Of a DNA stretch of 64,000 nucleotides, positions 782-16,663 are shown piece after piece; within the stretch, counting starts at the first letter, position 1, and every line of letters begins with the position of its first letter. Position numbers and translations under genes: made by a program. Source of the stretch: Paludibaculum fermentans (GTDB lineage: Bacteria; Acidobacteriota; Terriglobia; Bryobacterales; Bryobacteraceae). The notes under the pieces are model-generated. The model ran no database searches. It saw nothing but the letters and a program-made list of their open reading frames with translations, and was not told the DNA's origin. Where the stretch lies: NCBI RefSeq assembly GCF_015277775.1, contig NZ_CP063849.1, positions 3,224,001 to 3,288,000 of the forward strand, given 5' to 3'.

Positions 782-1669
782 ATGAGAACGATGACCGCCT
801 CCGTTCTGGCAAAGCTGATTCTGCTCGCCCCGCCTGGCACGGCTGCTGAGGACACAGGGGCGCCCGGGTTCACGGAAGAGACGCCGCCGGGCATGCAGAG
901 CGGCTACGCTCCGGTGAACGGGCTGCGGATCTACTACGAGATTCACGGGACAGCGCGGGACGGGCATCCGCCGCTCGCGCTGCTGCATGGCGGCGGCGAT
1001 ACGATCCAGACCAGCTTCGGAAAGATCCTTCCGCTGCTGGCGCGGGGCCGGCAGGTGATCGCGTTCGAGCAACAGGGGTATGGGCACACGGCGGATGTCG
1101 CCGGACGCCCTTTCGGTTTCGAGCAGTCGGCGGACGATACCGCGGCGCTGCTGGAACATCTGCATGTGGGCCAGGCGGACCTGTTCGGCTTCAGCAATGG
1201 CGGGACCATCGCGCTGCAGGTGGCGATCCGCCATCCGAAGGTGGTTCGGCGGCTAGTGGTCGCTTCCGGACTGTTCCGGCGCAGTGGGGCCGATGCCTGG
1301 CTCTGGGCGGCGATGGCCAACGCCCAACTGGAGAACATGCCGAAAGAGTTGCAGGAGGAGTATCTGAAGGTGGCTCCGCATCCGGAGAATCTGCGGAGCT
1401 CCCATGACAAGGCGGCACAGCGGATGCGGGCGTTCAAAGACATTCCGGATGCGGCGATTCGGGGGATTGCGGCGCCGACGCTGGTGGTGGTGGGCGACTC
1501 GGATGTGGTGCGGCCGGAGCACGCGGTGGAGTTGTTCCGGTTGCTGCCGCGCGGGCGGCTGGCCGTGCTGCCGGGGACAGACCATATGGCCGTGATGGGG
1601 CGGGCAGGGTGGCTGGTGCCTATGGTGGAGGAGTGGCTGGGTATGGCGGATGAGGGGGCCGGTCGCTGA
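782..1669 (+). CDS. alpha/beta-fold hydrolase, probably exported
   Basis: A 295-residue alpha/beta hydrolase. The oxyanion-hole region LLHGGGDT lies near residues 68-74. The nucleophile elbow GFSNGG places the catalytic serine at residue 138. The acid is Asp239 or Asp241 in VVGDSDVV, and His268 in GTDHM completes the triad. The first ~22 residues are hydrophobic and end in an Ala-rich stretch, consistent with a signal peptide, so it may act in the periplasm. It follows the YCII gene by 5 bp. The family covers esterases, epoxide hydrolases, haloperoxidases and others, and the substrate cannot be assigned. Confidence is high for the fold and low for any reaction. Confidence 0.88.
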   Translation: MRTMTASVLAKLILLAPPGTAAEDTGAPGFTEETPPGMQSGYAPVNGLRIYYEIHGTARDGHPPLALLHGGGDTIQTSFGKILPLLARGRQVIAFEQQGYGHTADVAGRPFGFEQSADDTAALLEHLHVGQADLFGFSNGGTIALQVAIRHPKVVRRLVVASGLFRRSGADAWLWAAMANAQLENMPKELQEEYLKVAPHPENLRSSHDKAAQRMRAFKDIPDAAIRGIAAPTLVVVGDSDVVRPEHAVELFRLLPRGRLAVLPGTDHMAVMGRAGWLVPMVEEWLGMADEGAGR

Positions 1670-1945
1670 CGCGTCTCCGGGACTGGGTGGAGCGGCTTCG
1701 TTCGATTTGGTGGGGGTCGCCGGGCCGTGCCGCCGCGGTGGATGGGGAGTATCGCGGGTTCCCCCGCTCCTTGCAGTCGCGGCTGCTTGTTCGGCGATGC
1801 CGGGAACCAGGGAATGACTGCTGACGATGGGTTGGGAGCTTTCGGGGGCTCCTCCGCTCGTTGACACTCGCGGCTCAATTTCCGGCGGCTCGTCGGGCCG
1901 CGGCGGGTTGGGTGGGCGGGTGGGATCGATGGTAGAGTCAGCTAA

Positions 1946-3445
1946 ATGAGTGAGGATCTTTCCACCCGCCGGGATGCGCTACGGGGGCTGGCCGCGGCCT
2001 CATTGCTGCCGAGCTCCGTGTCGGCTGCGGCGGCGGGCCCGGAGCTGTGTTTTCTGAGTGCGATCGAAATGGCGCGGCTGATCCGCGCAAAGAAGCTCTC
2101 GGCTCGCGAGGTGCTGGCTGCTCATCTGAAACAGATCGAGCGCGTGAATCCCAAGGTCAACGCGATTGTCAGCCTGGCTCCGGAGATGGCCGCGGAGGCC
2201 GCCGCGCAGGCCGATGAGAGGCAGGCGCACGGCGAGAAGCTGGGGCCGCTGCATGGGCTGCCGGTGGCTCACAAGGACCTGATGGAGACGCGTGGGTTGC
2301 GGACGACCTACGGGTCTCCGCTCTTCAAGGATTTCGTGCCTACGGAAGACGACATCGTCGTGGAGCGCATGCGGCGGGCAGGCGCCGTCATTCTGGGCAA
2401 AACGAATACTCCAGAGTTTGGTGCTGGTTCGCAGACATTCAACAAAGTCTTTGGCGCGACCCTGAACCCCTACGATTTGACGAAGACTTGTGGCGGATCT
2501 TCGGGTGGGGCGGCGGTGGCGCTGGCTTGCGGGCTGGTGCCGGTGGCCAGCGGCTCGGATGCCGGCGGATCCCTGCGGAATCCGGCTGCGTTCTGCAATG
2601 TGGTGGGCTTCCGGCCTTCGGTCGGCCGCGTGCCGGCACCGAAGGCTGCGTTTGCGTGGTCGACATTCGCGACCTCGGGGTGCCTGGGGCGCACGGTGGC
2701 GGACCTCGCGTTTGCGTTCAGCACGATCGCGGGTCCGGATTCGCGCGCGCCGTTGTCGATCGAGGAGCCGGGCGAGCGCTTTGCGGCTCCACTGGGGCGC
2801 AGTCTCAAGGGGGTGCGCGTGGCGTTGTTCAAGGATCTAGGCGGCGTGCCGTTTGATCCGCGCGTGCGGAGCATCGTCGATGGCCATCGTAAGACGTTCG
2901 AATCCCTGGGCTGCATCGTCGAGCAGGCGGAGCCGGATTTCGCTCCGTGCGAGGTGGCGTTTCGTGTCCTGCGGGCGTGGAATTCCGCGGCAGGTAACGC
3001 CGACCGGCTGAAGCAGCACCCGGAGGCGTTCAAGGATACGCTGCGGGGCGAGATCGAAGAAGGATTGCGGCTGACGGGGCAGGATCTGGCGCGGGCCGAG
3101 ACCGCGCATGGTGTGATGTGGCGGCGATTCCAGGCGTTCCTGGAGAAGTATGAGTATTTCGTGCTGCCGACGACGCAGTTGCCGCCGTTCGACGTGAACA
3201 CGCCGTACCCGACGGAGATCGAGGGTGTGCGGTTCACAAACTACATCGACTGGATGAAAGCATGCTGGTACATCTCGGTGACCGGGAACCCGGCGGCCTC
3301 GGTGCCGGGCGGGTTTACGGCGGAGGGGCTGCCAGTGGGCGTGCAGATTGTCGGGCGGCACCACCAGGACTTTGCGGTGCTGCAGATGGCGCATGCGTTT
3401 GAGCAGTCTACGGGGTTTGGGAAGAAGCGGCCGGGCGTAGTGTAG
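1946..3445 (+). CDS. Amidase-signature family amidase, Tat-type leader
   Basis: A 499-residue amidase-signature (AS) enzyme that hydrolyses amide bonds with a Ser-cisSer-Lys triad. Lys110 sits in VAHKDL, the cis-serine is Ser185 in GGSSGG, and the acyl-forming serine is Ser209 in SDAGGSLRNPA. The spacing is that of the AS fold. The N-terminus reads STRRDALRG followed by an Ala/Leu-rich segment ending near residue 30, resembling a twin-arginine export signal ('Tat' secreted amidase). Length is normal for the family. It stands alone, 276 bp after the hydrolase and convergent with the large secreted protein at 3521-6550. It is not GatA by context, since no gatB or gatC is present. The natural amide substrate is unknown. 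Confidence 0.9.
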   Translation: MSEDLSTRRDALRGLAAASLLPSSVSAAAAGPELCFLSAIEMARLIRAKKLSAREVLAAHLKQIERVNPKVNAIVSLAPEMAAEAAAQADERQAHGEKLGPLHGLPVAHKDLMETRGLRTTYGSPLFKDFVPTEDDIVVERMRRAGAVILGKTNTPEFGAGSQTFNKVFGATLNPYDLTKTCGGSSGGAAVALACGLVPVASGSDAGGSLRNPAAFCNVVGFRPSVGRVPAPKAAFAWSTFATSGCLGRTVADLAFAFSTIAGPDSRAPLSIEEPGERFAAPLGRSLKGVRVALFKDLGGVPFDPRVRSIVDGHRKTFESLGCIVEQAEPDFAPCEVAFRVLRAWNSAAGNADRLKQHPEAFKDTLRGEIEEGLRLTGQDLARAETAHGVMWRRFQAFLEKYEYFVLPTTQLPPFDVNTPYPTEIEGVRFTNYIDWMKACWYISVTGNPAASVPGGFTAEGLPVGVQIVGRHHQDFAVLQMAHAFEQSTGFGKKRPGVV

Positions 3446-3520
3446 GCGCATGGGCTCGCGATCGAGGAGCAGTCGTGGGAGGGCGGGCCGGGCACTCCGC
3501 GGCTCCGGCGGAACCACCCG

Positions 3521-6500
3521 CTACGGAACGGGCAGAGCGGGGATCGTCGTAAATGCGGACGAGGCGTTGAAGCGCAGGCCCAGCAGGACGAGTTGGCCAG
3601 GCTCGGCGGTGGAGACCCGCACGGTTCCAATGGCTCCCGCGGCGGCGGGGATGCCCAGTTGCTGATCGTCCAGCGCCATGTCGGCATGACCGAGCGGCGG
3701 AATCGAAAAGGAACGTTCACCCAGGGTGGCAGCGCCCGTGGAGTCGAGCACGGTCAGCGTGACCGCGGCCGCCGCGCCGGACAGATTTGCCATCGCGATG
3801 CCAGTGGATGCGCCGTTCGTGTTGTCGAAGGGCATCAGGTAGGCCGCACCTTCCGGCAGGCCCAATGGGACGAGGCTTTCGGATAGTGGTCCGCTGTCAG
3901 GCTGGTGGGAGAATGTGGCATAAGCGACAACACTGGCGTTTGAGCGGAGTTGCAGCCAACCGCGCAGGACGGAGGCTCCGGCACCCGGTGATTTCAGGGT
4001 GAGAGTCGCTCCCGGAGCGAGGGTTCTTTCGAGAACGGAGCCTGAGAGCAGGTACTCGCCGAAGCGGTAGGAGAGGACGAGCGGCACGGGCATCGGCGCG
4101 CCGGCTCCATCGAAGAAACTGAGCAGGACGCGAGCGGCGTCTGCTCCCGGGTTGGCGATGGTGACGGCGGTCTGCCAGCCTCCGCCCGTGACCCAGTGCG
4201 GCAGTGCGGCGGCGACGCTCCACTGCGCGGCGGCCGCTGAAGCCTGCTCCAACGTCCACGAAATGCCGGCCACCGTGATGGCGCCCGAGCGCGCGGCGCC
4301 GGAGTTCCCGGACACCTGGAAGGTCACTGAGCCGCTGCCCGTGACGGAGGCCGGGCCCACGAGGGTCACCCAATCGAGCAAGGTGGAGGCCACCCAGTTG
4401 CAACCGGACTGTGTCGCGACGTTGACCACGCCGATGCCTCCGGAGGCCGGGAATGACTGCCCGGCGGAATCGACCGAGAACGTGCAGGGGCCGCCGCTGG
4501 TGGGTGAGGAGAGGGCCACGGCCAGGATGGAAGGGGCGCTGGTAAGGATCCCATTACCGGCGGTCAGGGAGAGCCGGTAGACGCCGGGCTGATTCGCGGA
4601 GAACGCGGGGTGCAGGGTCTTGGAGTCGCTGAAGTGGGCGTCCGCACCGGCAGGCTGGCTAATAATGCGCCACTCGAGGACGGGTTCCGGTTCAAAGACG
4701 GCCACTTCCGCGGCGTCGAGGGTCACCGCGTCGTTGACGGTGGCCTGGCGGTCCGGACCGGCATAGGCAACAGGGTCCCGTTGAGCGGCCAGGAGGGCGA
4801 CGGCGGGATAGATCTGTTCGTAGTAAGCGTTGTCGAGCGGGAAGCCCCAGGCGGCGAAACGGGGGCGGAGGTCGGAATGCAACGCGGCGCTGACGGCCGC
4901 GACAAAGAAGGTGGCTTGCTGGGTGTCACCGGAGAGGGCGAAGGGATATACAGCTTCGCTTTGCGGCAGGAAGGTAGAAAAGAAACGATAGAGCCAGGCG
5001 GAGCCGTAATCGTTCATCAACGCGGCAAGCATTTCATCGAGAATGTTGGCGTCCAGGGTCGTGTAGTCCGCGCCTTTCGCCAGGTAAGCCTTCAACAGCG
5101 TGCCGCCATTGAAGCGCATTTGACTGGCGATCTCTTGCACCCGGGTGGCACTGACGCCCGACACTTCCGGCGGCAATTCGTTCAGCCGTGCGGATACGGC
5201 CATGGCGGCCAGGCTGGCCAGCCCTTCGACAAAGGCGACGTTGTTGTTCTGGTTGGCGCCGGAGAAGGTGAAACGGGAGAAGCGCTGCGAACCCAGGGTG
5301 AAATTGTGGCCCATTTCGTGGAGAATGACGAACCACTGGGTAGAGACGGGCGTGACATCCACCCACAGGCAGCTACCGTCGTGGGATTTCGAGATGTCGG
5401 TGCCGAGACCGACAGGATTGCCGGAGCCACCGCAGGGCAGAGTCTCCTTGGCGGAATCAGGGTTGCCGGGACCGGCGACGTTGGCCAGGAATTGGGTGTC
5501 GCCGCGCCAGGGGATCACCCCGGTGATCTGCCGCTCCAGCAGGTAGCCGGCGTCGGTGGTCTCGGGCACCTGGAACTGGGGCAGCAGCGCGTTGTTGTCC
5601 AGATGGCCCGCCTGCTTCGGGGCGTAGTAAGTGATGTTGGGCTGAACCCAATAGGCGAGGTCGGGATCGAAGGGCGGATCGTTGACGCGGAGGGTCGCGT
5701 TATCCGAGGAGGGGACACCGTCGATGGAGGCGCTGAACGAGACGCCTTCGCTGCGGTCCTGTGGCGCGCGGAAGGCCGTGATCCAGCCATCTGAGGCCAT
5801 GGTGGCGACGGCGGAGGGGCCATGGAGTTCCGTGACGATTTTGTGTTTCGAGAGGTCGAGCGGGGTACCGTCGGCGTTCGCGGCATCGAATTCGAAACGA
5901 CCGGCAGGGTGGGTGCCGGGTGACAGATAGAGCAGGGGCGGCAGGACGCGGAAGTGGCCGGCGGAGACCTGCGCCGAACCGGTCTGCGGCAGCCCTTCCA
6001 CTTGAGCGACCACGTCGGCCAGGCCGAAGCCGGTGGCGGAGACTCGGCCGGCGGAGTCGACCTGAACAACCGCGGGATTGGAACTGGTGAACGAGAGCTT
6101 TCGACTGCGGGTGGGCACCAGGCGGCCCTGGGTATCCCGGAGTTCGACACGTAGGGTGCCGGTGGTCGTGCCTCCGCGCAGGGCGACTACCGCCGGCAGG
6201 ACCCGGACGGAGTAGCCGCAGGCGGGGTCCTCGGCTGAGGTGATGGTGGCGGTGACCGTGCGATCTGACGACTCGCCGGCCTGGGAGGTGGCGGTGGCCC
6301 GGATGGTATACACCCCATTCGCCGTGTACTGGTGGACGGAGGGGAACATCGAGTTATTCCGGGTGCCGTCGCCCCAATCCCAAGCGATGTTGGCGATGAC
6401 ATCACCGGTGGAGGGGGAGACGCCTCCATTCACCGAGACCTGGCCACAAGCAGCGACGGCCGGCGGGGTAAGGCTGAGGGAGATGGCGGAGAAAGCAGAC

Positions 6501-6550
6501 GGCGCAAATGCAATGAGGAGAAGAATGGCGAAGCGAGCAACGGGCCACAT
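3521..6550 (-). CDS. Large secreted PKD-domain protein with HExxH motif and BACON-like domain
   Basis: A 1009-residue secreted multidomain protein. A signal peptide (residues 1-~21, ending FAPSAFS) is followed by a PKD-like domain (about 25-110; NIAWDWGDGT) and Ig-like/bacterial Big-type segments (about 115-290). A central domain carries HEMGHN, placing metal ligands at His411 and His415 with Glu412 as base, so it is probably a zinc peptidase-like domain; I cannot place it in a named peptidase family. A second PKD-like stretch is near 590-680, and a BACON-like domain (CTFSVDSAG...GCNW...WTLEQA) is near 690-770. The last ~234 residues (GGGWQTAVTIANP ... FDNTNGASTGIA ... LGLRF) form a module also found at the end of the Ig-repeat protein at 38675-42916. 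It is probably exported and surface-attached or secreted. It is transcribed convergently with the amidase. Confidence 0.82.
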   Translation of the reverse strand: MWPVARFAILLLIAFAPSAFSAISLSLTPPAVAACGQVSVNGGVSPSTGDVIANIAWDWGDGTRNNSMFPSVHQYTANGVYTIRATATSQAGESSDRTVTATITSAEDPACGYSVRVLPAVVALRGGTTTGTLRVELRDTQGRLVPTRSRKLSFTSSNPAVVQVDSAGRVSATGFGLADVVAQVEGLPQTGSAQVSAGHFRVLPPLLYLSPGTHPAGRFEFDAANADGTPLDLSKHKIVTELHGPSAVATMASDGWITAFRAPQDRSEGVSFSASIDGVPSSDNATLRVNDPPFDPDLAYWVQPNITYYAPKQAGHLDNNALLPQFQVPETTDAGYLLERQITGVIPWRGDTQFLANVAGPGNPDSAKETLPCGGSGNPVGLGTDISKSHDGSCLWVDVTPVSTQWFVILHEMGHNFTLGSQRFSRFTFSGANQNNNVAFVEGLASLAAMAVSARLNELPPEVSGVSATRVQEIASQMRFNGGTLLKAYLAKGADYTTLDANILDEMLAALMNDYGSAWLYRFFSTFLPQSEAVYPFALSGDTQQATFFVAAVSAALHSDLRPRFAAWGFPLDNAYYEQIYPAVALLAAQRDPVAYAGPDRQATVNDAVTLDAAEVAVFEPEPVLEWRIISQPAGADAHFSDSKTLHPAFSANQPGVYRLSLTAGNGILTSAPSILAVALSSPTSGGPCTFSVDSAGQSFPASGGIGVVNVATQSGCNWVASTLLDWVTLVGPASVTGSGSVTFQVSGNSGAARSGAITVAGISWTLEQASAAAAQWSVAAALPHWVTGGGWQTAVTIANPGADAARVLLSFFDGAGAPMPVPLVLSYRFGEYLLSGSVLERTLAPGATLTLKSPGAGASVLRGWLQLRSNASVVAYATFSHQPDSGPLSESLVPLGLPEGAAYLMPFDNTNGASTGIAMANLSGAAAAVTLTVLDSTGAATLGERSFSIPPLGHADMALDDQQLGIPAAAGAIGTVRVSTAEPGQLVLLGLRFNASSAFTTIPALPVP

Positions 6551-6727
6551 CAGATTTGTCTATCCTATTCCCTTTTATCTTACGGCAAGGAAGAAACCGG
6601 ATCCGGCGTAGCAGGGCCGGGCGTACAGCCAGGGCAGATCGGATTCGCAGGAGATTCACATCCCAATATTCATTGCAGCGTTTGAGAGCTTTTTGTATAC
6701 AATTAATGCGGAATCGAGATCTCCAAA

Positions 6728-7150
6728 ATGGACAAAGAACAAGAATCGCCAAGCGCGGCCGTGACTCTGGATCAAGTCCTGAAGAAATACGGAAAGATCT
6801 GGATCTGGTCGATCCTGATGACATTCAGCGCCGCCGAGTTCATGCGAACGTTGGGCGGGGTGAATGTGTTGACATACAACATCCGCAATGGCCAGATAGG
6901 GGGCATTGCCGGCGAAGCGGCCATCCGTTGCATTTACGGAGGGATTGAGTGTGTCGCCTGTTTCCTGTCCCTCTTCTGGCTGTTCCAATTCATGGTGAGT
7001 GAGATACTCCCGATCTTCTTCGAGGTCACGGGCGAAGCGGAGATCTCAGACGGCGCCCGGTTGCTCTACTGGGCTTTCGGCGCAACCCTGATTGGCGTTG
7101 GGGCGGAACTGGGCGGCATGCTCCTGCTGGGCTTGATGCAATTGCGCTAA
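6728..7150 (+). CDS. Small membrane protein of unknown function
   Basis: A 140-residue protein that I do not recognise. After a charged, soluble N-terminus (about 1-30) there are three likely membrane spans: about 31-46 (IWIWSILMTFSAAEFM), 70-95 (a Cys-containing segment around CVACFLSLFWLFQFMV) and 112-138 (YWAFGATLIGVGAELGGMLLLG). Two Cys flank the second span. It stands alone between the divergent PKD protein and the operon at 7448. There is a TATACAAT-like element some 30 bp before the start, but no clear Shine-Dalgarno sequence. The real start could be one of the nearby in-frame codons. Confidence 0.6.
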   Translation: MDKEQESPSAAVTLDQVLKKYGKIWIWSILMTFSAAEFMRTLGGVNVLTYNIRNGQIGGIAGEAAIRCIYGGIECVACFLSLFWLFQFMVSEILPIFFEVTGEAEISDGARLLYWAFGATLIGVGAELGGMLLLGLMQLR

Positions 7151-7367
7151 CGGCGGGTTCGAGCGGCGGCGGGAGACCCTTCCTGAAGTCCTCCGCAAGA
7201 ATCCACGCAGAATCCTCCGGATCATGGAACATTCGTGAGAGATGTTACGTTTTCCCTGGTGTGGAGGACGTTTGTGACCGATCCCAGAGAGCTGGTGATG
7301 TTGCCGACGCATAAAGTCACGTACCCGGGGCGGAAGGTCGCTGTGACCCTCGATTAGCCCGGCATGG

Positions 7368-7385
7368 CCCTGGACCTGTCCAGGG
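7368..7385. promoter_or_regulatory. Perfect 8-bp inverted repeat before the PspA/ABC/AAA operon
   Basis: CCCTGGAC-CT-GTCCAGGG is a perfect dyad 62 bp upstream of the first operon gene. It lies just upstream of the putative -35 box at 7397. It has no U-tract, so a regulator-binding site or small hairpin is more likely than a terminator. The assignment is inference from symmetry and position only. Confidence 0.35.
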
Positions 7386-7396
7386 CAGGGTATGGT

Positions 7397-7426
7397 TTGA
7401 CTTTAATCCATTCATAGTCCTACGCT
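7397..7426 (+). promoter_or_regulatory. Possible sigma-70-type promoter of the operon
   Basis: A -35 box TTGACT (7397-7402) is followed after 18 bp by TACGCT (7421-7426), a weak -10. The gene start at 7448 is 21 bp further on. The -35 is near consensus and the -10 keeps only three consensus positions. Confidence 0.35.
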
Positions 7427-7447
7427 TACCGTGAGGGAAAAGCTGCG

Positions 7448-8155
7448 ATGAGCAAGAAGTGGTACAACTACTTCGTTTCGGTGGACTCTGTGACGGGGGA
7501 GCCGGCTTCTGGCGGCGAATCCGGCGAGAGCGCTTCGGGACCGGGTGCGCCCGCTCCGATGAGCGCGGCCGATGAGATCGCCGGCCTGGCCCACTCCATT
7601 CAACCAACACCCGCGCCGAAGTTTGCCAACCCGGTGGCCGATCCGGCCTCGTTTGCCCAGATTTACGAAGCGGCCGAAGTGCGCGTGCCTGCGCACGGGT
7701 TCACCATCTTCAAGATCGCCGAGATGCTCAAGAGCGAGCATATCCGCAGCCTGCCGGTGGAGATCAAGCGGAGTTCAGTCCTGCTGGCGCTGGATGCGGC
7801 CGGAGTGAAACTGCAGGAAGTGATCGAAGACGCGGTGCATCGCGACCGGGCGCTCGACACGTTTGAGGCGGTGCAGCAACGTTCGCTGGATCAACTGGAA
7901 GCCCGCAAGGCGGACGAGAACAAGCAACTGCAGGCGGAAGCCGACCGGGTGCTGAACGAGCTGCGGGCCAAGATCCAGGCCAACAACGACGAGGTTACAA
8001 AGGAACGGGAGCGCCTGCAGGGCTGGCGGTTCCAGAAGCAGCAGGAGGAGCGCCGGATCTTCGATGCGGTGGCTCCGTTTGTCCCGGAAAACCCAATCAC
8101 CACGGGGCCCGCCGTGACGCCCAAAGCAGAGTCCGGTAAAGTACCCGGCAATTAG
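7448..8155 (+). CDS. Operon-first coiled-coil protein of unknown family
   Basis: A 235-residue soluble protein with no family I can name. It has no signal peptide or membrane segment. The N-terminal ~60 residues are Ala/Gly/Pro/Ser-rich and look disordered. A compact helical part follows (about 70-135, including FTIFKIAEMLKSEHIRSLP and SSVLLALDAAGVKLQEVIEDAV). Then comes a long charged coiled coil (about 136-205, rich in Gln, Glu, Arg and Lys) and a Pro-rich tail. It is the first gene of a seven-gene block and the PspA gene follows after 20 bp. The coiled coil next to another coiled-coil protein suggests it binds PspA or the AAA+ ATPase, but that is inference. A GAGGG-like ribosome site precedes the ATG. 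Confidence 0.7.
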   Translation: MSKKWYNYFVSVDSVTGEPASGGESGESASGPGAPAPMSAADEIAGLAHSIQPTPAPKFANPVADPASFAQIYEAAEVRVPAHGFTIFKIAEMLKSEHIRSLPVEIKRSSVLLALDAAGVKLQEVIEDAVHRDRALDTFEAVQQRSLDQLEARKADENKQLQAEADRVLNELRAKIQANNDEVTKERERLQGWRFQKQQEERRIFDAVAPFVPENPITTGPAVTPKAESGKVPGN

Positions 8156-8175
8156 CCGGGAAGGAGCAGTGATTC

Positions 8176-8907
8176 ATGATGAACCGCCTGTCGCGGATCT
8201 TTCGTTCGTTTTTCGGTTTCTTCATCTCCATTGCCGAGGATCCCGAACTCATCCTCGAGCAGAACATTCGCGACATGAACGATCAGGTTCCGCGAATGAA
8301 CGAGAGCATCGCGATGGTGAAGGCCAACGTGACGCTGCTGGAGAAGGAAGAGTCGAAGTACCAGGCCCAGTTGAACGACCTCGGCGCCAAGGTGAAGGCC
8401 AGCATTCAGGCGGGCCGGGACGACCTGGCCGGGCAGTTCGCCATCCAACTGGAGCAGTTGCGCGGGGCGCTGGCACGCACGCAGGGCCAGTTGACGACGG
8501 CGCGGTCGGCTTACGACAAGGCCCTGAACGTCAAGAAGGCTTTCCTGCGCGAGAAGGAACGCAAGACGAACGAGGCGATGAATGCGATTCGCGATTACCG
8601 CCGTTCGAAGTGGCAGAAGCAGGTGGCCGATGCCATGGAGCAGTTCGAGGTGGCCGGTATCAGCCAGACGCACGATGAGATGGTGCGGAAGATCGAAGAG
8701 ACCACGGCGGTGAACGAGGCACGGATGGAGATGGCGATCGGCAATGTGGACCAGCAGCGGTTCCAGATTGAAGAAGACGCCGAGAAGTTGCGCGCGGCCG
8801 AACTGGTGAAGCAATTCAAGGCGGAGATGGGACTGATGACGCCTTCGGCGTCGACACCGGCGCCGGAGAAGACGATCGGCGGCCGCGAGCAGGATCGCAC
8901 CACGTAG
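8176..8907 (+). CDS. pspA: PspA/IM30 family membrane-remodelling protein
   Basis: A 243-residue, almost entirely helical protein of the PspA/IM30 (Vipp1) family, the ESCRT-III-like proteins that bind stressed inner membrane and stabilise it. The amphipathic N-terminal helix (NRLSRIFRSFFGFFISIAED) leads into 'DPELILEQNIRDMNDQVPRMNESIA', the typical family opening. Long charged helices run to about residue 215, and a short Thr/Ser/Pro tail ends the protein. Length matches PspA. It sits second in the operon, 20 bp after the coiled-coil gene, with a strong AAGGAG site. An ABC importer and AAA+ ATPase follow. No PspF, PspB or PspC homologue is visible here, so regulation and partners differ from the enterobacterial system. 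Confidence 0.88.
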   Translation: MMNRLSRIFRSFFGFFISIAEDPELILEQNIRDMNDQVPRMNESIAMVKANVTLLEKEESKYQAQLNDLGAKVKASIQAGRDDLAGQFAIQLEQLRGALARTQGQLTTARSAYDKALNVKKAFLREKERKTNEAMNAIRDYRRSKWQKQVADAMEQFEVAGISQTHDEMVRKIEETTAVNEARMEMAIGNVDQQRFQIEEDAEKLRAAELVKQFKAEMGLMTPSASTPAPEKTIGGREQDRTT

Positions 8908-8934
8908 TAACAGGAGGCGACCTAAGAGGCAATC

Positions 8935-10503
8935 ATGGCAATACGAATTGAAAAAGGCGGGTGGGCTTTCATCTTTGTGCTGGGCTTGGGCCTGGTGGGC
9001 TACAGCCTGGACCGGTATGGGGTGGTGAACCTGTCAGGTCTGCTCGGCAAGGGCGGCGACAAGGCGGCGAGCAAGTCGGCTGTGGACACGTCGAAGCCGC
9101 TGCCCACGACGGGCGACAAGGAATCGAACGAAGTCCGGGTGAGAGTGAATATCTGGGTGGGCTGCGTGGGCGGCCTGGTGGCCAACGGCGGCCTGGACAC
9201 CGCGGCGGGCTCTATCTACGACAAGAAGGGCATCAAGGTTTCGTTCAAGATCATTGACGACTGGACGGAAGGCACGGCCGCGCTGGCATCGAACAATGTC
9301 GATGTGATGCTGACTACGGCCGACGTCTGGGCCAAGGACTACGCGCAACTGGCCGAGAAGGGTTTCCATGCCCGGGCGGTCTATATGGTGGACTGGTCGC
9401 GCGGCGCGGATGGTGTAATCGGCAAGCAGGGCGTGAACAGTATTGAGGATCTGGCGGGCAAGAGCGTGGCCTTCGCGCCTTACACTCCGTCGCACTTCCT
9501 GCTGTGGAACGGCCTGAAGACCTCCGGCCTGACGACCGAGCAGCGGACTGAGATCTTCGCCAAGGCCGTGCATACGAAAGACGGCATCGAGCCGGCGACC
9601 CTCTTCGCGCAGCAGAAGGTGGACGCGGCCGTGGCGTGGGATCCGGACATGAGCGACGCGGTGGCGAAGCGCAAGGGATCGAAGAAGATCTACGACACGC
9701 GCGTGGCGAACCGGTTGATCGCGGACATCCTGGTGGTGAGCGACCGGTTCTCGAATGCCTCCCCGCAGACGCTGCGGAAGTTCCTGGAAGGCTGGCTGGA
9801 AGGCGTGGAGTTCATCAAGCAGCAGCCGTCGCGGGCGCACACGCTGATCGGGACGATCAAGGATTTCAACATCCCGGCCGATCTGGCGAAGACGATGCTG
9901 GAAGGCGTCAGGCTGAGCGATTACGCCGACAACAAGGCGTTCTTCGGCCAGGGCGCGGGCAGCGATTACCACAACATCATGGGCATGGCGCAGGACATGT
10001 ACCGCGAGATGCGACTGGTGAAGGGCGTACCGGATCTCGAGGGCAGCGTGGACCGGCGGTATGTGGCCGGCATGGAAGGCAAGTTCTCGTCGACGTCGAC
10101 CGAGGCGCCGATTGAGTACAAGGCTCCGCCGAAGGGCGCGACGCCCATCGCGACGCAGCGCCGGGCGATCTACTTCGAGACGAACTCGGCGGCGATGAGC
10201 ATGGACTCGCGAGCGGTGGTGGATGAAATTGGCGGCATGATGCGCGCGTACGAGAATACGGTGGTGGATATCGATGGGAACTCGGATGCCACCGGGTCGC
10301 GTGAGATCAATATGTCGCTCTCCCGGGAGCGTGCTGAGACGGTGAAGAGCTATCTGATGAAGAAGTACGGCTACCCGGCCAACCGCATGCGGACGGCTGG
10401 CAACGGGCCGGATAAGCCGATCGACAACAACGACACGCCGGAAGGCCGCGAGAAAAACCGCCGCACGGATATCAAGATCTACGCGAATCCGGCGGGGCAA
10501 TAA
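8935..10503 (+). CDS. ABC substrate-binding protein fused to an OmpA peptidoglycan-binding domain
   Basis: A 522-residue fusion. Residues about 10-28 (WAFIFVLGLGLVGYSLD) form one hydrophobic segment without a clear cleavage site, so it probably anchors the protein in the inner membrane. Residues about 65-370 resemble NMT1/TauA-type periplasmic binding proteins for small organic substrates ('GCVGGLVANGGLDTA', a GKSVAFAPYTPSHFLLW segment). Residues about 405-520 are an OmpA-like domain with NMSLSRERAETVKSYL and TPEGREKNRRTDI, the segments that hold meso-diaminopimelate of peptidoglycan. The gene lies between the PspA gene (27 bp upstream) and the permease gene, whose ATG shares a base with this stop codon. 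The fusion would hold the importer's receptor between membrane and cell wall. The ligand is unknown. Confidence 0.85.
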   Translation: MAIRIEKGGWAFIFVLGLGLVGYSLDRYGVVNLSGLLGKGGDKAASKSAVDTSKPLPTTGDKESNEVRVRVNIWVGCVGGLVANGGLDTAAGSIYDKKGIKVSFKIIDDWTEGTAALASNNVDVMLTTADVWAKDYAQLAEKGFHARAVYMVDWSRGADGVIGKQGVNSIEDLAGKSVAFAPYTPSHFLLWNGLKTSGLTTEQRTEIFAKAVHTKDGIEPATLFAQQKVDAAVAWDPDMSDAVAKRKGSKKIYDTRVANRLIADILVVSDRFSNASPQTLRKFLEGWLEGVEFIKQQPSRAHTLIGTIKDFNIPADLAKTMLEGVRLSDYADNKAFFGQGAGSDYHNIMGMAQDMYREMRLVKGVPDLEGSVDRRYVAGMEGKFSSTSTEAPIEYKAPPKGATPIATQRRAIYFETNSAAMSMDSRAVVDEIGGMMRAYENTVVDIDGNSDATGSREINMSLSRERAETVKSYLMKKYGYPANRMRTAGNGPDKPIDNNDTPEGREKNRRTDIKIYANPAGQ

Positions 10504-11336
10504 TGGCACATCCGTCCACTATCCGCAGGCCCATTGCAAAGCAGTGGCAATTGGGGCTCGGCGTGGCTGCCTGGACGCTGGTGGTGGTGGTGTGGTTCGT
10601 GCTGACGCGCGGCGACCTGCTGCCACCGCTGGCGCTGCCGGATCCGGCGGGCGTCGTGACGGCCATGGTGCGGCTGTGGACCGAATACGACCTACTGGGT
10701 AACGTCTTCCAGAGCTGGTGGCGCATCGCCCAGGCATTCGGCTGGTGTGTGGTGGTGGCGATCCCGCTGGGCCTGGTCATGGGCAGCTTCCCGTGGGTCT
10801 ACCACTTTGTGAATCCGGTGGCGGCGCCGATGCGGTCGATGCCGATCACCGCCTTTCTGCCCGCGTTCATCGCCCTGTTCGGGATGGACGAGGGGATGAA
10901 GGTGGGGTTCCTGTTCTTTGGGATGTTCTTCTACCTGCTGTCGCTGGTGGTGGAAGAAGTGAACAAGGTGGACAACGCGCTGCTGGAGACGGCCTATACG
11001 CTGGGCGCGAACGTGCCGCAGGCGGTGTGGCTGCTGTTCCGGGCCTCGTTCCCGGCGATCTTCGGTTCGTTCCGGATCCTCTACGACATCGGCTGGACCT
11101 ACGTGATTCTGGCCGAGATGGTGAATTCGCGGCGCGGCGTGGGCTACATGGTGGAAGCGGCGCGCAAGGTGCTGGATTTCGAGCGTGTATATGCAGGCAT
11201 CATCGCCATCGGCGTGGCCGCATTTCTGTTCCGATGGCTGTTGACGGCTCTGGAGAGCCGGCTATTCCCCTGGCAACAACCGGCGCTGCGGCAAGCGGCT
11301 CCGCCCGTCCCCACTGGCCATGCAACCAAAGAATAA
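10503..11336 (+). CDS. ABC transporter permease, nitrate/sulfonate/taurine type
   Basis: A 277-residue inner-membrane permease of the binding-protein-dependent class (SsuC/TauC-like). About six membrane spans are visible, the first near residues 17-37. The cytoplasmic EAA loop, which contacts the ATPase, reads LETAYTLGANVPQAVWLLFRASFPAIFGSFR near residues 160-190 and keeps the typical E-A-x3-G pattern in modified form. Start and stop overlap with both neighbours: one base with the binding-protein gene and 17 bases with the ATPase gene. This implies translational coupling and a 1:1 complex. The substrate is unknown; the family mostly handles sulfonates, taurine, nitrate or pyrimidine precursors. 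Confidence 0.88.
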   Translation: MAHPSTIRRPIAKQWQLGLGVAAWTLVVVVWFVLTRGDLLPPLALPDPAGVVTAMVRLWTEYDLLGNVFQSWWRIAQAFGWCVVVAIPLGLVMGSFPWVYHFVNPVAAPMRSMPITAFLPAFIALFGMDEGMKVGFLFFGMFFYLLSLVVEEVNKVDNALLETAYTLGANVPQAVWLLFRASFPAIFGSFRILYDIGWTYVILAEMVNSRRGVGYMVEAARKVLDFERVYAGIIAIGVAAFLFRWLLTALESRLFPWQQPALRQAAPPVPTGHATKE

Positions 11337-12144
11337 GATCGCCCTCCGCAACGTATCGCGGGTCTTCACCAACGCCGCCGGCGAGAAGATCGAGGCGTTG
11401 CGCGACGTAAATCTGGAGGTGGAGGACGAGTTCGCTCCGGACGGCCGGGACATCGGCGAGTTCCGGGTGCTGCTGGGTCCGTCGGGCTGCGGCAAGTCGA
11501 CGATCCTGCGGCTGATCGCCGGGCTGGACTTCCCTACGAAGGGCGAAGTTCTGATGAACGGCCAGCCGGTGACCGGACCGGGATCGGACCGCGGCATGGT
11601 GTTCCAGAAGTACACGTCGTTTGCCTGGCTGACGGTATCGAAGAATATCGAGTACGGGCTGTCGATCAAGGGCACGCCTCCGGCGGAGCGAAAGGAGATC
11701 GTGTCGCACCTGATCGACGCTGTCGGGTTGCGCGGGTTTGAGAACGCCTATCCGCACACGTTGTCAGGCGGCATGCAGCAGAGAGTGGCGATCGCGCGTT
11801 CGCTGGCCGTGCGGCCGCAGGTGCTGCTGATGGACGAGCCGTTCGGGGCGCTGGACGCGCAGACGCGCAACGAGATGCAGGACCTGCTGCTGCGGATCTG
11901 GGACGAGACGGCGGCCACGGTGCTGTTCGTCACGCACGACGTGGCGGAGGCGGTGTTCCTGGCGGACCGGATGTATATCGTGAGTTCGCGCCCGGGCACG
12001 ATCGTGGAGGAAATCCCGGTCCCGTTCGGGCGGCCGCGCGACCAGGGACTGAAGGAGCAGCGCGAATTCCAGGAAGTTGAGGCGCACGCCCTGGCCCGGT
12101 TGCGCAGAGCCGGCGGCGCCGGACAGGTGCGGGTCAGCGTTTAG
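11320..12144 (+). CDS. ABC transporter ATP-binding protein, nitrate/sulfonate/taurine type
   Basis: A 274-residue ATPase subunit for the permease encoded just upstream. The Walker A motif GPSGCGKST spans residues 53-61. The Q-loop region follows, then the ABC signature LSGGMQQR near residue 148, Walker B LLMDEPFGALDAQ near 170, and the switch His in FVTHDVAEAV. An acidic insertion (EVEDEFAPDGRDIGEF) precedes the Walker A strand and is longer than in SsuB/TauB. The gene begins 17 bases inside the permease gene. All catalytic residues are intact, so it should be active. No substrate can be deduced. Confidence 0.9.
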   Translation: MQPKNKIALRNVSRVFTNAAGEKIEALRDVNLEVEDEFAPDGRDIGEFRVLLGPSGCGKSTILRLIAGLDFPTKGEVLMNGQPVTGPGSDRGMVFQKYTSFAWLTVSKNIEYGLSIKGTPPAERKEIVSHLIDAVGLRGFENAYPHTLSGGMQQRVAIARSLAVRPQVLLMDEPFGALDAQTRNEMQDLLLRIWDETAATVLFVTHDVAEAVFLADRMYIVSSRPGTIVEEIPVPFGRPRDQGLKEQREFQEVEAHALARLRRAGGAGQVRVSV

Positions 12145-12205
12145 AAGCCGTGGCGGTTGCCGGGCGCACCCTTATACAATCGATTAGCAGACATACGCGT
12201 CGCAC

Positions 12206-13111
12206 ATGCCCAACGACAAGCCCAATTTCGGTACCGAGTTGAAGGGCGCTATCAACCACAAACTGGACGAAGCGGGCCTTTCGCAGCAGGACTACGTCAA
12301 GGCGGCGCTGAAGTGGCAGTACAACTGGATCGGCCTGGCCGGGGCGGCGGCATTCGCCGTGGTCTCGGGTACAGGCCTGCCGCTGGTGCTGGCCGCGGGG
12401 CTGGAGTTGATGTACGTCGCCCTGGTGCCGCAGAGCAGCCGGTTCCGGCGGCTGGTGCGGTCGTGGAAGTACGCCGGCGAGAAACGCGAGCACGACAAGC
12501 GGCTGGAAGAGATGTACAAGAACCTGCCGCCGGAGATGCGCAGCCGGTATGCGTTCGTCCAGCAGGTGGCGCAGGCGATCCGCACAAACTACCAGCAGCT
12601 TTCGGCCAGTTCGCAGATCTTTGCGCGGCAGATGGCGGAGCGGCTGGATGGGCTTCTGGAAGGCTATGTCCGGCTGCTGTTCACGGCCAATACGCATCGT
12701 GAGTACCTGAAATCGTTGAATCCGGACCAGGTGCGGAGCGAAGTGGCGTTCCTGGAGAAGTCGCTGGAGAAGAATGCGCCGAAGGTGCAGGAGATCAACC
12801 GGCGGCGCATCGAGATCCTGCGCAAGCGGGTGACGAAGTTCGAGAAGATCCAGGAGAACCGCCAGGTGATCGACGCGCAGTGTGCGGCGATCGAGGACGT
12901 GCTGCAGCTGATCCGCGACCAGTCGGTGACGATGCGCGATCCGCAGGAAGTGAGCGCGCAACTCGAGAACCTGGTGCAGGACGTGGAGCAGACCGAGCAG
13001 AGCGTGCGCGAGATGGAAGAGATTTACGCCCTGACCGCGCAGGAGAGCGATGAACTGCGCCTGCCCGAAGCCGGCGGGGAGCCCCCGCAACAGAACCGTG
13101 TCCGGAACTGA
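12206..13111 (+). CDS. Membrane-anchored coiled-coil protein of unknown family
   Basis: A 301-residue protein that I do not recognise. Residues about 45-80 (WIGLAGAAAFAVVSGTGLPL, then VLAAGLELMYVALVP) form one or two membrane spans. The rest is a long charged helical region, about residues 85-290, with heptad-like Leu/Glu/Arg/Gln spacing, probably in the cytoplasm. The gene follows the ABC ATPase after 61 bp and precedes the AAA+ gene by only 2 bp. A TATACA-like -10 element at 12173-12178 could give it a secondary promoter. Position suggests a membrane dock between PspA or the ABC importer and the AAA+ protein, but this is inference. Confidence 0.7.
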   Translation: MPNDKPNFGTELKGAINHKLDEAGLSQQDYVKAALKWQYNWIGLAGAAAFAVVSGTGLPLVLAAGLELMYVALVPQSSRFRRLVRSWKYAGEKREHDKRLEEMYKNLPPEMRSRYAFVQQVAQAIRTNYQQLSASSQIFARQMAERLDGLLEGYVRLLFTANTHREYLKSLNPDQVRSEVAFLEKSLEKNAPKVQEINRRRIEILRKRVTKFEKIQENRQVIDAQCAAIEDVLQLIRDQSVTMRDPQEVSAQLENLVQDVEQTEQSVREMEEIYALTAQESDELRLPEAGGEPPQQNRVRN

Positions 13112-13113
13112 AT

Positions 13114-14850
13114 ATGAGCTCGACCACACCGCCCTCCCCGCTGGAGCCGCTGCCCGCATGGGCGCGCCGGCTCTCTGAGAAGTACTATTCGCGGACGCTC
13201 GCCATGTTCGTGCTGCACGGCAATGTGCACGACCTGGTGCCGTGGAGGCGCGGCGACCGCACGGATTACGTGCCTTTGTCGAAATTCCTGAACGAGGGAC
13301 TGTTCGGACGCCGGGACCTGGTGCTGAGTTACGACCGGGGCGGCGGCATCACGTTTGCGAACAGTGACGTGCAGGCCGACTTCCAGCGCGCGCTGGTGGG
13401 TTACGACTCATTCCATGGCACGAAGTATTCGCAGGGACTGCCGCGCAATCCAGACGCCGTCCTGACCCTGATCGAGAGCTATCTGCGGCTGCGGGTGATG
13501 GACGGCAAGAAGATCGCGTTGATGCTGGATTTCGCAGACTCGATTGTCCCGGCCAGCGATTCGGCGTCGATGGGGTCTGAAGATCGCAACTGCCTGGTGA
13601 TGCTGAAGCGCTGGGCCCAGAACCAGCACTTCCTGCGGGCCGACGTCACTGTTTGCCTCATCGCGGAGAGCCTCTCGGCCGTGAATTCCGGGCTGGTGCA
13701 GAATCCAGGCGTCTCCGCGATCGAGATCCCGCTGCCGGACGAGGCGGAGCGCATCGAGTTCGTCAAATGGCAGATGGCGCTGACGCCGCTGCCGGAGGGC
13801 TCGGAAGTGACAGCGGAGACGCTGGCCAAGCTGGGCGCGGGGCTGAAGCGGGTTCAACTGCAGAACCTGATCTCGCACGCCAGCGAGAACCGGCAACCGC
13901 TGACGCTCGCGTTCCTGACGCGGTTGAAGAAGGAACTGATCGAAGCCGAATCAGGTGGACTGTTGGAGTTCGTGCAGAGCCGGTTTGACCTGTCGATGGT
14001 GGCGGGCCTGGAGCAGGCCAAGAAGAAGTTACAGGACGCGGCCACGGCGCTGCGGGTTGGACGCTTCGACGTGCTGCCGATGGGTTATGTGATCTCCGGT
14101 CCGGTGGGCACGGGCAAGACGTTCCTGACGACCTGTTTCGCCGGCGAAGTGGGGATCCCGGCCGTCATGCTGAAGAACTTCCGCAGCATGTGGCAGGGTG
14201 TGACGGAAGCCAACCTGGAACGGGTATTGACGTTGCTGAAGGCGATGAGCCCGATCGCGGTGGTCGTGGATGAGGCCGACGCGCAACTGGGCGACCGGTC
14301 GAGTTCCGGCGACAGTGGTGTCGGCAACCGGGTTTTCGCGCAGATCGCGCAGTTCATGGGCAATACGGAGTTGCGCGGCAAGGTGATCTGGTTCCTGCTG
14401 ACGTGCCGGCCCGACCTGCTGCCGGTGGACTTGAAGCGCCAGGGCCGTGCGGAAGAGCACATCGCCCTGTTTTACCCGCGCAGCGACGCCGAGCGGCTGG
14501 CGATGCTGCGGGCGATGCAGCGGAAGACGGGGACGCGCGTCGCTTCCGAGGAAGCGGAGCAGTTCTTCCTGGCCAACGCAGGGATGCTCTCGGGCGCTGA
14601 CACGGAAGCCGTCCTGGTGCGGGCTCGGATGAAGAGCGCCCTGGAAGGCGATGCGGCCGTCGACGTCGAGGACCTGAAGGCGGCCATCGCCGACTTCATT
14701 CCGCCCAGCTATCCGGACGAGATCGAATTGCAGAATCTGGTGGCGGTGCTGGAGTGCACTTCGCGCAGCCTGCTGCCGGAGGAGTACCGGACGATGGACC
14801 GCGGCGAGATCCAGCGACGCGTGGCCGAGCTGCTGGCACTGGCGCGCTAA
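13114..14850 (+). CDS. Ycf46-like AAA+ ATPase with degenerate N-terminal ATPase-like half
   Basis: A 578-residue protein in two halves. Residues about 1-260 look like a decayed P-loop/AAA fold: no Walker A is visible, but there is a Walker-B-like strand (KKIALMLDFADSI) and an 'IEIPLPDEAERIEFV' segment typical of Ycf46-type proteins. Residues about 275-500 hold an intact AAA+ core: Walker A GPVGTGKT (329-336), Walker B VVVDEAD (Asp386, Glu387), then a Gly/Ser stretch (RSSSGDSGVGNRVF) like that of Ycf46, and a sensor-1 region FLLTCRPD. The expected arginine finger is not obvious. It is the last gene of the operon. AAA+ proteins that remodel or release PspA/ESCRT-like polymers are known (PspF, Vps4), so a comparable role with the PspA at 8176 is plausible but unproven. 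Confidence 0.82.
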   Translation: MSSTTPPSPLEPLPAWARRLSEKYYSRTLAMFVLHGNVHDLVPWRRGDRTDYVPLSKFLNEGLFGRRDLVLSYDRGGGITFANSDVQADFQRALVGYDSFHGTKYSQGLPRNPDAVLTLIESYLRLRVMDGKKIALMLDFADSIVPASDSASMGSEDRNCLVMLKRWAQNQHFLRADVTVCLIAESLSAVNSGLVQNPGVSAIEIPLPDEAERIEFVKWQMALTPLPEGSEVTAETLAKLGAGLKRVQLQNLISHASENRQPLTLAFLTRLKKELIEAESGGLLEFVQSRFDLSMVAGLEQAKKKLQDAATALRVGRFDVLPMGYVISGPVGTGKTFLTTCFAGEVGIPAVMLKNFRSMWQGVTEANLERVLTLLKAMSPIAVVVDEADAQLGDRSSSGDSGVGNRVFAQIAQFMGNTELRGKVIWFLLTCRPDLLPVDLKRQGRAEEHIALFYPRSDAERLAMLRAMQRKTGTRVASEEAEQFFLANAGMLSGADTEAVLVRARMKSALEGDAAVDVEDLKAAIADFIPPSYPDEIELQNLVAVLECTSRSLLPEEYRTMDRGEIQRRVAELLALAR

Positions 14851-15079: not shown

Positions 15080-15811
15080 ATGAAACAACCAGTCCGTCTC
15101 CTCAATCGTTGCTCGGCTGAATTCCTCGGCACATTCTGGCTTGTGTTCGGAGGGTGCGGCAGCGCCGTCCTGGCAGCCGCATTTCCAGGCCTCGGAATCG
15201 GCTTCGCCGGCGTGGCGCTCGCGTTCGGCCTCACCGTCCTGACCATGGCATACGCCATTGGCCATATCTCAGGGTGTCATTTGAATCCGGCTGTCTCCAT
15301 CGGTCTCGTGGCGGCCAAGCGGTTTCCGCTTGAGGAACTGCCGGCCTATGTCGCGTCGCAGACAGCGGGCGCCATCGCCGGAGCCGGGGTTCTGTATGTG
15401 ATCGCCAGCGGCAAGGCCGGATTCGACGCCAGCGGCGGCTTTGCCTCCAATGGGTTTGGCTTGCACTCGCCTGGCGGCTACTCGATGCTGGCTTGTCTGC
15501 TGGCCGAGATCGTGCTCACCTTTTTCTTTCTGTTCATCATTCTGGGGGCGACAGACCGCAGGGCGCCGCAAGGGTTCGCGCCGGTGGCCATCGGCCTCGG
15601 ACTCACGCTGATTCACCTAATCGGAATCCCGGTGACGAACCTCTCAGTCAATCCCGCGCGCAGCACTGGTCCGGCATTCTTCGTAGGTGGGTGGGCCATT
15701 GAGCAACTTTGGCTGTTCTGGGTTGCGCCGATCGCCGGCGCGATTCTGGCCGGTCTTCTGTACCCGGCGCTGGCGGGCAATTCGCTCCCGGCGGAAGACG
15801 AACTCCGCTAG
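15080..15811 (+). CDS. aqpZ: Aquaporin Z-type water channel
   Basis: A 243-residue MIP-family channel with both pore motifs intact: NPA at residues 69-71 (HLNPAVSIG) and at 191-193 ([11 protein letters not shown]). The residue after the second motif is Arg, as in all members. Six membrane segments with two half-helices fit the length. His181-like and other small selectivity-filter residues and the short loops favour water-selective AqpZ over glycerol-conducting GlpF, but this rests on sequence impression. It opens a cluster with MscL and an MscS-like channel, which fits osmotic adaptation. The start is the first ATG that gives a short cytoplasmic tail before the first span. Confidence 0.92.
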
Positions 15812-16228: not shown

Positions 16229-16663
16229 ATGTTAAAAGACTTCAGAGCCTTCGTGATGAAAGGCAATGTATTGGACCTGGCGGTCGCGGTCATCATCGGC
16301 GCGGCGTTCGGCGCGATTGTCACCTCGATGGTGAATGACATTATCATGCCGCCGATCGGCATGCTGTTGAGCGGGATCGACTTTAAGGAACTGTTCCTGG
16401 CCTTGAACGGGCAGCACTACGCCTCGCTGGCGGCGGCGAAAGCGGCAGCGGCCCCGGTGATCGCCTATGGCGTGTTCCTGAACGCGGTGATCAATTTCCT
16501 GATCGTCGCGTTCGTGATCTTCGTCGTGGTGCGGGCAGCCAGCAAGCTGCAGAAGCCGGCACCCGCGACAGCGCCGACCACAAAGGACTGCGCGTTCTGT
16601 TTCACCGCGATTCCGATTCCGGCCAAGCGGTGTCCGCACTGCACCTCGCAGTTGACAGCCTAA
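16229..16663 (+). CDS. mscL: Large-conductance mechanosensitive channel MscL with C-terminal zinc ribbon
   Basis: A 144-residue MscL, the pentameric pore that releases solutes on hypo-osmotic shock. The N-terminal helix and TM1 ([20 protein letters not shown]) are canonical, and TM2 is the segment around [19 protein letters not shown]. Instead of the usual charged C-terminal bundle, the protein ends in a zinc-ribbon-like element with Cys121, Cys124, Cys135 and Cys138 (CAFC...CPHC). The extra metal site may act as a redox or metal-sensing cap on the pore (inference). The gene lies 58 bp after the HhH gene and in the same direction as aqpZ, so the three may share a transcript. Confidence 0.92.

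Follow-up and report, generated by a model that had tools for sequence, protein, structure and literature searches.

A seven-gene operon of the acidobacterium Paludibaculum fermentans, located in the 64,000-nucleotide stretch that we analysed (the window; positions 3,224,001 to 3,288,000 of contig NZ_CP063849.1), combines a PspA/IM30 protein and an AAA+ ATPase with an ABC importer whose binding protein is fused to an OmpA domain. By comparing this operon with related loci, we found that the importer is replaceable as a unit while the membrane-remodelling genes stay. The steady part consists of PspA and the membrane coiled-coil protein encoded by gene 6, often together with the AAA+ protein of gene 7, and the exchangeable part is the wall-tethered importer. 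Gene 6 occurs with both, and we propose it as a membrane adaptor that links the PspA core to the importer. The operon is a member of a type that is already in print, to which these observations are added.

The seven open reading frames (ORFs) all lie on the + strand, with spacings of 20, 27, -1, -17, 61 and 2 bp in the ORF list of the window, exactly as described in an earlier note made from this DNA alone. Its assignment of a PspA/IM30 protein, a binding protein-OmpA fusion, a permease, an ATPase and an AAA+ protein is borne out by Pfam matches above the respective cut-offs:

Gene 1, 7448-8155, + strand: 235 residues; helical protein that matches no Pfam or NCBIfam family above cut-off.
Gene 2, 8176-8907, + strand: 243 residues; PF04012 PspA_IM30, 67.9 bits (cut-off 33.9).
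Gene 3, 8935-10503, + strand: 522 residues; PF09084 NMT1, 37.1 bits (cut-off 20.5), and PF00691 OmpA, 64.1 bits (cut-off 27.2).
Gene 4, 10503-11336, + strand: 277 residues; ABC permease, TauC/SsuC-like; PF00528, 58.3 bits (cut-off 26.4).
Gene 5, 11320-12144, + strand: 274 residues; ABC ATPase, SaoA/TauB-like; PF00005, 102.9 bits (cut-off 25).
Gene 6, 12206-13111, + strand: 301 residues; membrane coiled-coil protein with no Pfam or NCBIfam family above cut-off.
Gene 7, 13114-14850, + strand: 578 residues; AAA+ protein; PF00004, 75.7 bits (cut-off 21.2), over residues 326-451 only.

In three separate metagenome records (L101, L102 and L103), another importer fills the place of genes 3-5; that of L101 comprises a 602-residue protein, in which OmpA is the sole Pfam match, and a diverged permease and ATPase. 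When L103 is compared with L099, genes 1, 2, 6 and 7 are 75, 91, 87 and 90% identical, and genes 3, 4 and 5 are 28, 30 and 37% identical over the part that can be aligned. At the DNA level, the likeness of the two is already present upstream, ends 85 bases inside gene 3, at position 2114 of L103, and comes back at the start of gene 6 (position 5453), so that roughly the first 28 codons of gene 3 are kept; in this start, residues K7, G8, G9, W10, I13, F14, G17, G19, G22 and Y23 are invariant among five aligned proteins. The exchange is also seen between L099 and L102, and a second one was found in another family, that of L070. When L070 is compared with L069 and L071 of its own family, genes 1, 2, 6 and 7 are 59-62, 78-81, 53-54 and 69-71% identical and genes 3-5 only 25-41%, whereas L069 and L071 share 78-82% identity in genes 3-5. 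Conversely, L070 and L103 have importers that are 56-69% identical and cores that are 19-37% identical. The number and direction of these exchanges rest on pairwise identities, not on trees.

Across 32 seven-gene loci, distance correlations reach 0.84-0.92 within genes 1, 2, 6 and 7 and 0.93-0.95 within genes 3-5, compared to 0.52-0.67 between the two modules. This gap rests on L101-L103, and it is therefore the exchanged loci, together with loci that miss one module, that carry the two-module picture. For the latter, we examined two sets of gene 7 neighbourhoods, scored for the phylum with profiles from the window proteins and their matches. The phylum loci comprise 33 of 47 neighbourhoods that had enough flank (14 were dropped); the contig loci, which include Bacteroidota/Balneolota-type and myxobacterial records and one from Cloacimonetes, comprise 51 with enough flank (29 were dropped) from the best 80 of at least 545 confirmed gene 7 matches, and lean to close relatives. 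The neighbourhood limit of 9 kb severs PspA in several myxobacterial loci. PspA, gene 6 and gene 7 occur together in 20 of the 33 phylum loci and 34 of the 51 contig loci, among which 8 of 33 and 11 of 51, respectively, have these three genes and no importer; gene 7 stands alone in 9 and 8. The earlier note had proposed to count how often all seven genes co-occur, and of the phylum and contig loci, 6 of 33 and 15 of 51, respectively, carry the complete set on a single strand, so that it recurs but does not form one fixed unit.

The gene set also recurs in three circular orders, namely 1-7, 4-5-6-7-1-2-3 (L045 and L050) and 7-1-2-3-4-5-6 (L060), which argues for more than chance and means that content is kept while order changes. 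This bears on an alternative in which the core (genes 1, 2, 6 and 7) and an ordinary importer are unrelated units that share a promoter but do not work together. Such an arrangement would fit an importer that is exchanged while the core is unchanged, cores that occur free of an importer, and several genomes in which importer and core lie at separate places; nevertheless, we regard it as very improbable in view of the togetherness of both modules in three circular orders, the position of gene 6 between or beside both modules, and the exchanged importer of L101-L103, which again has an OmpA end.

The association extends to whole genomes. In a phylum sample of 297 evenly drawn genomes, we found gene 7 (E ≤ 1e-20) in 48, gene 6 (E ≤ 1e-8) in 61 and PspA (by Pfam, E ≤ 1e-8) in 84. 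Gene 6 occurs in 41 of the 48 genomes with gene 7 compared to 20 of the 249 without, and PspA in 56 of the 61 genomes with gene 6 compared to 28 of the 236 without, as well as in 39 of the 48 with gene 7, which upholds the earlier view that these genes belong together, in tables whose counts and p-values ignore relatedness. The PspA counts are low, as G064, G116 and G203 were scored without it, yet the clusters L049, L052 and L050 hold PspA by another profile. By family label, gene 7 occurs in 27, gene 6 in 23 and both in 22; the corresponding Fisher test is rough, with a total of 77 taken from the highest label seen. Among 30 genomes chosen because gene 7 lies apart or its stretch is cut short (13 phylum genomes, L130 and 16 of the 17 gene 7-only contig loci, all but L107), 25 have gene 6 and 25 have PspA (E ≤ 0.001; 24 of these PspA matches exceed the Pfam cut-off). 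In ten small stretches, gene 6 adjoins PspA or its end (L159, L160, L162, L163, L164, L166, L168, L169, L171 and L182). As a separate observation, the Balneolota-type locus L121 has PspA, a 154-residue protein of unknown family, gene 6, genes resembling those for an enoyl-CoA hydratase and for CNNM/CorC, and gene 7.

Gene 6 is also found with either module alone. Importers of the first type, that of the window, were sought in another set of 30 chosen genomes, 20 of which carry gene 7, and those of the second type in all 297, with hits in 8 of the 30 and 6 of the 297. At 9 of the 13 loci where the importer stands alone, gene 6 lies at or near the importer and neither PspA nor gene 7 is there. 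It sits directly 3' of the ATPase gene in L206, L207, L212, L214 and L215, whereas in L208 and L209 a called ORF of 128-129 codons comes between the two; in L213 an opposite-strand gene separates it from the importer, and in L216 it is divergent beside gene 3. L206-L209 have neither PspA nor gene 7; there, gene 6 is preceded by the genes for the binding protein, the permease and the ATPase, in this order, and followed by a match to gene 1 that is weak (53-62 bits). PspA and gene 7 are likewise not present in the stretches of L212-L216. Gene 1 was detected in five of the nine gene 6-bearing loci (L206-L209 and L212). The second-type importer locus L211 lies within a PspA cluster. Conversely, PspA-gene 6 pairs with no importer or gene 7 nearby were found in all eight regions examined from one family (f21; one of the regions, L194, spans 4 kb only), a label borne by 18 of the 20 genomes that have gene 6 and lack gene 7. 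As gene 6 can thus accompany an importer or PspA in the absence of the other, or both at once, it belongs to both modules.

These loci can be read differently: the products of genes 2, 6 and 7 would serve the assembly or quality control of an envelope-spanning importer, helping it into the membrane, removing damaged copies and closing leaks around it, and care of the membrane would not be their purpose in itself. That gene 6, and often gene 1, accompany importers in the absence of PspA and gene 7 (L206-L209 and L212) would agree with this. Classical AAA proteins such as CDC48 and FtsH, to which gene 7 is related in sequence, act on protein complexes, which would agree with it as well. We nevertheless consider importer maintenance rather unlikely, given the importer-free loci counted above and the eight gene 7 genomes, named below, in which searches for both types gave no importer.

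The model of gene 6, the proposed adaptor (mean predicted local distance difference test (pLDDT) score of 82, predicted template modelling (pTM) score of 0.66) has two adjacent membrane helices (38-54 and 58-76), with the hydrophobic windows falling within 42-76, followed by coiled-coil helices at 134-170, 192-242 and 246-282. A sequence search of the PDB matched a chain named H12 at E = 0.0024 and two further chains at about 0.7. BAR-domain matches recur, and may reflect merely long helical bundles. The earlier note had suggested both of its unassigned coiled-coil proteins as adaptors, a suggestion that fits gene 6. Gene 1 is predicted to have a disordered N terminus with a conserved KKWYNYFVSVD start, a small helical region (40-117) and a long helix (122-208), with a mean pLDDT of 81 and a pTM of 0.56; no PDB match at E ≤ 0.001 and no fold match was found for it, and we regard it as a putative accessory helical protein, to core and importer alike.

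Within the core, gene 2 belongs to the PspA/IM30 family of the bacterial ESCRT-III superfamily. It matches Vipp1/PspA polymers among solved structures by sequence (best E = 3e-7) and is predicted on this ground to form membrane-bound helical polymers. It is the sole PF04012 match at E ≤ 0.001 in the two-contig, 9.53 Mb genome and scores below many PspA proteins in the phylum. Two other genomes, G257 and G258, have a second, higher-scoring PspA apart from that of the operon. Gene 7 has intact ATPase motifs, with a P-loop (GPVGTGKT) at 329, a Walker B motif (DEAD) at 386-389 and LKRQGR at 440-445; the P-loop is the single one in the protein, and the N-terminal 290 or so residues have none. Its nearest solved relatives by sequence are AAA domains of the CDC48/p97 type, with FtsH related too, and among the matches listed, from which very near records may have been omitted, the best are proteins of Bryobacterales/Bryobacteraceae metagenome-assembled genomes at 82-83% identity. 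An apparent gene 7 fusion in L063 (a 959-residue frame) was set aside as an overlong open frame, its lead being arginine-rich and unrelated in appearance.

Within the importer, gene 3 has a hydrophobic N-terminal segment at about residues 10-23, an NMT1/SsuA-like domain (94-377 by the SsuA model) and a C-terminal OmpA domain (413-509) with the motif DATGSREINMSLSRERA at residue 451, which we take to be a mark of peptidoglycan binding. In the window protein, no 19-residue hydropathy window reaches 1.6 in the N-terminal segment; a hydrophobic start, judged by eye, is present in most of the full-length OmpA-fused gene 3 proteins listed, and from its sequence the segment is likely an uncleaved membrane anchor. 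The Walker A (53), signature (148) and Walker B (168) motifs of gene 5 are intact. Elsewhere, L072, L073 and L076 have extra genes of the binding protein-OmpA type upstream of PspA, with gene 6 undetected by profile, and L081 (970-2031) and L082 (4733-5703; in two frames) have a second binding-protein gene between PspA and gene 3. L218 (G188:C12:5000-24000), in which a permease, gene 1 and a short piece of gene 3 are set apart, resembles a decaying or moved importer cluster. The myxobacterial L115 has, at 1538-11716, PspA, an NMT1-like binding protein that lacks OmpA, gene 6, a 527-residue protein of unknown family, an ABC pair of the MacB/FtsX type, a Ser/Thr kinase bearing a PEGA domain and gene 7; the ABC pair and the kinase here stand in place of the tethered importer.

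A tethered binding protein and ABC unit could also act as a sensor that reports a periplasmic solute or the spacing of the wall and triggers PspA assembly via gene 6, which would make the importer the input of a stress response. The probable position of the binding protein between membrane and wall, the exchangeability of the importer type and the combination, in the L115 run, of an ABC unit, a binding protein and a kinase would suit such a role. The intact ABC motifs, as real transport would need, the lack of a signalling domain in the seven genes of the window and the many core loci without an importer count against it, and we judge a sensor improbable.

The reading that we tentatively favour, without granting it even chances, is that gene 6 docks a PspA polymer and its own AAA+ enzyme onto an ABC importer tethered to peptidoglycan. 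Gene 6 would sit next to the importer in the inner membrane and recruit PspA, which, as an ESCRT-III-like protein, would coat and stabilise the membrane there; gene 7 would use ATP to dismantle PspA, or complexes of gene 6 and PspA, and so allow turnover of the coat. The OmpA domain would keep the gene 3 binding protein close to the wall, which leads us to propose the contact between inner membrane and wall as the site of action, and gene 1 would be an accessory helical protein. The importer would give a place or a signal rather than a fixed chemistry, and could be swapped for a different tethered importer. The physical contacts, PspA as the substrate of the AAA+ enzyme, the membrane-stabilising role and any ligand of the importer are all predictions.

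Several observations weigh against this docking model. If L101-L103 are dropped, the distance correlations between the modules rise to 0.73-0.87, compared to 0.83-0.91 and 0.88-0.93 within them. Neither importer type was detected at E ≤ 1e-10 in 8 of the 20 genomes with gene 7 that belong to the set searched for the first type (G132, G259, G235, G275, G219, G165, G096 and G026), which means that the core does not need an importer, and 4 of the 13 stand-alone importer loci have no gene 6 (L210, L217, L218 and L219). Of the 48 genomes with gene 7, gene 6 was not detected in 7 and PspA in 9, and 20 of the 61 with gene 6 have no gene 7. Profile comparison gave no sign of sequence kinship between gene 6 and PspA (hhalign probability 1.5), and searches for gene 6 with Foldseek and VIA gave no confident structural match. 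In gene 7, no MIT or Vps4 C-terminal Pfam domain was found up to E = 1, which would leave its grip on PspA unexplained. The model as a whole is, moreover, an argument from sequence comparison.

The earlier note had offered the operon as a candidate new system, a claim that has to be withdrawn. Ravi et al. 2024 (PMC11237479) describe one operon with PspA, a membrane coiled-coil 'Snf7 homolog' and a protein with two AAA+ domains, the N-terminal one inactive, together with an ABC ATPase, a permease and a binding protein-OmpA (PBPB-OmpA) fusion (for example, OGG56892.1), and read it as ATP-dependent membrane remodelling tied to solute transport, with the OmpA part on peptidoglycan. Its content corresponds to genes 2 to 7 here, including PspA_IM30, a coiled-coil protein with transmembrane segments, and the ABC ATPase, permease and binding protein-OmpA, and the role proposed in that text is much alike. 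As to the two AAA+ domains described there, gene 7 has the single P-loop at 329. Gene 1 is not named in the sections considered. The Snf7 homology printed for the coiled-coil protein is neither confirmed nor excluded for gene 6. These sections did not show exchange of the importer, importer-gene 6 loci that stand alone, circular gene orders or frequencies, and a literature search, with preprints and most subscription papers outside its scope, returned no second paper on the operon and the example accessions in PMC11237479 only. As far as this search and the sections considered reach, the importer exchange and the gene 6 pattern therefore appear to be additions to the published account.

The pairing of an ESCRT-III superfamily polymer protein with the gene of a classical AAA ATPase is likewise found in the eukaryotic and archaeal ESCRT-III and Vps4 systems. 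The Vps4_C domain is a criterion for Vps4. Unlike Vps4, gene 7 matches neither MIT nor Vps4_C, has CDC48/p97 as its nearest solved relative and is accompanied by an intervening gene for a membrane protein, gene 6. In the relevant part of PMC10936438, a Vps4 call accepts an MIT domain or, in archaea and eukaryotes, neighbouring ESCRT genes. With the classical proteobacterial psp operon (pspF-pspABC) the present one has PspA in common; PspF, however, is a sigma-54 activator, whereas gene 7 is a classical AAA protein by family, and no match to the sigma-54 activator family was found in the nine proteins scanned (the seven, the 140-residue protein upstream and AqpZ), the genome itself not being searched for pspF. 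The earlier note was right that this is not the classical Psp response. Its statement that PspB and PspC are missing holds throughout the genome for PspB, which was not found anywhere, and at the locus only for PspC, as a PspC-domain gene (80.7 bits) lies at C1:1418672-1418842, far from pspA. The band-7/flotillin-linked PspA of Acidobacteriota, as treated in part of PMC9239133, is from the same phylum and again lies beside other genes; unlike there, no band-7 match was found among the seven genes. Finally, genes 3-5 share their binding protein, permease and ATPase families with the SsuABC/TauABC importers, but fall below the curated cut-offs of that type (among the best 25 of 43, 8 of 8 and the best 25 of 197 matches, respectively), and the gene 3 binding protein differs by its OmpA fusion and N-terminal hydrophobic segment.

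Downstream of the operon lie a gene for aquaporin Z (AqpZ, 15080-15811; NCBIfam, 390.9 bits) and another at 16229-16663 whose product is presumably an MscL-like mechanosensitive channel; directly upstream, 6728-7150 encodes a 140-residue protein with no Pfam or NCBIfam match. As no ORFs like these three were found in the stretches of 127 relatives (L032-L158; phmmer, E ≤ 1e-8), we rejected the osmotic genes as partners of the operon and treat them as chance neighbours. Sigma-70-like sites number one in 12 kb, at 16317, fewer than in shuffles, and a sigma-54-like pattern shows no excess over chance in the window and does not occur between 6548 and 15868. We also set aside a role in anti-phage defence, for which PADLOC, run on five of the seven proteins (all but genes 4 and 5) and not on the wider surroundings, gave AAA-domain (IetA and TRIP13), MotB/OmpA-like (ZorB) and weak coiled-coil matches. 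Gene 7 scores at most 32.8 bits against IetA in PADLOC and 26.2 bits in NCBIfam, where the cut-off is 510, and no match to the IetS model was reported among the five proteins scanned.

A broader interpretation, which we offer as speculative and doubt at present, is that gene 6 is a general docking protein that couples a bacterial ESCRT-III polymer and its dedicated AAA+ enzyme for disassembly to exchangeable importers anchored at the wall. This would be a modular bacterial ESCRT machine whose cargo or input units are interchangeable, and in which the N terminus of gene 3 would be kept through an importer exchange for contact with the core. How PspA polymers are disassembled in bacteria is an open question, and a conserved AAA+ enzyme encoded in linkage with PspA makes it directly testable. 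The importer exchanges, in turn, are natural experiments that separate the core from the importer and point to gene 6 as the link between them.

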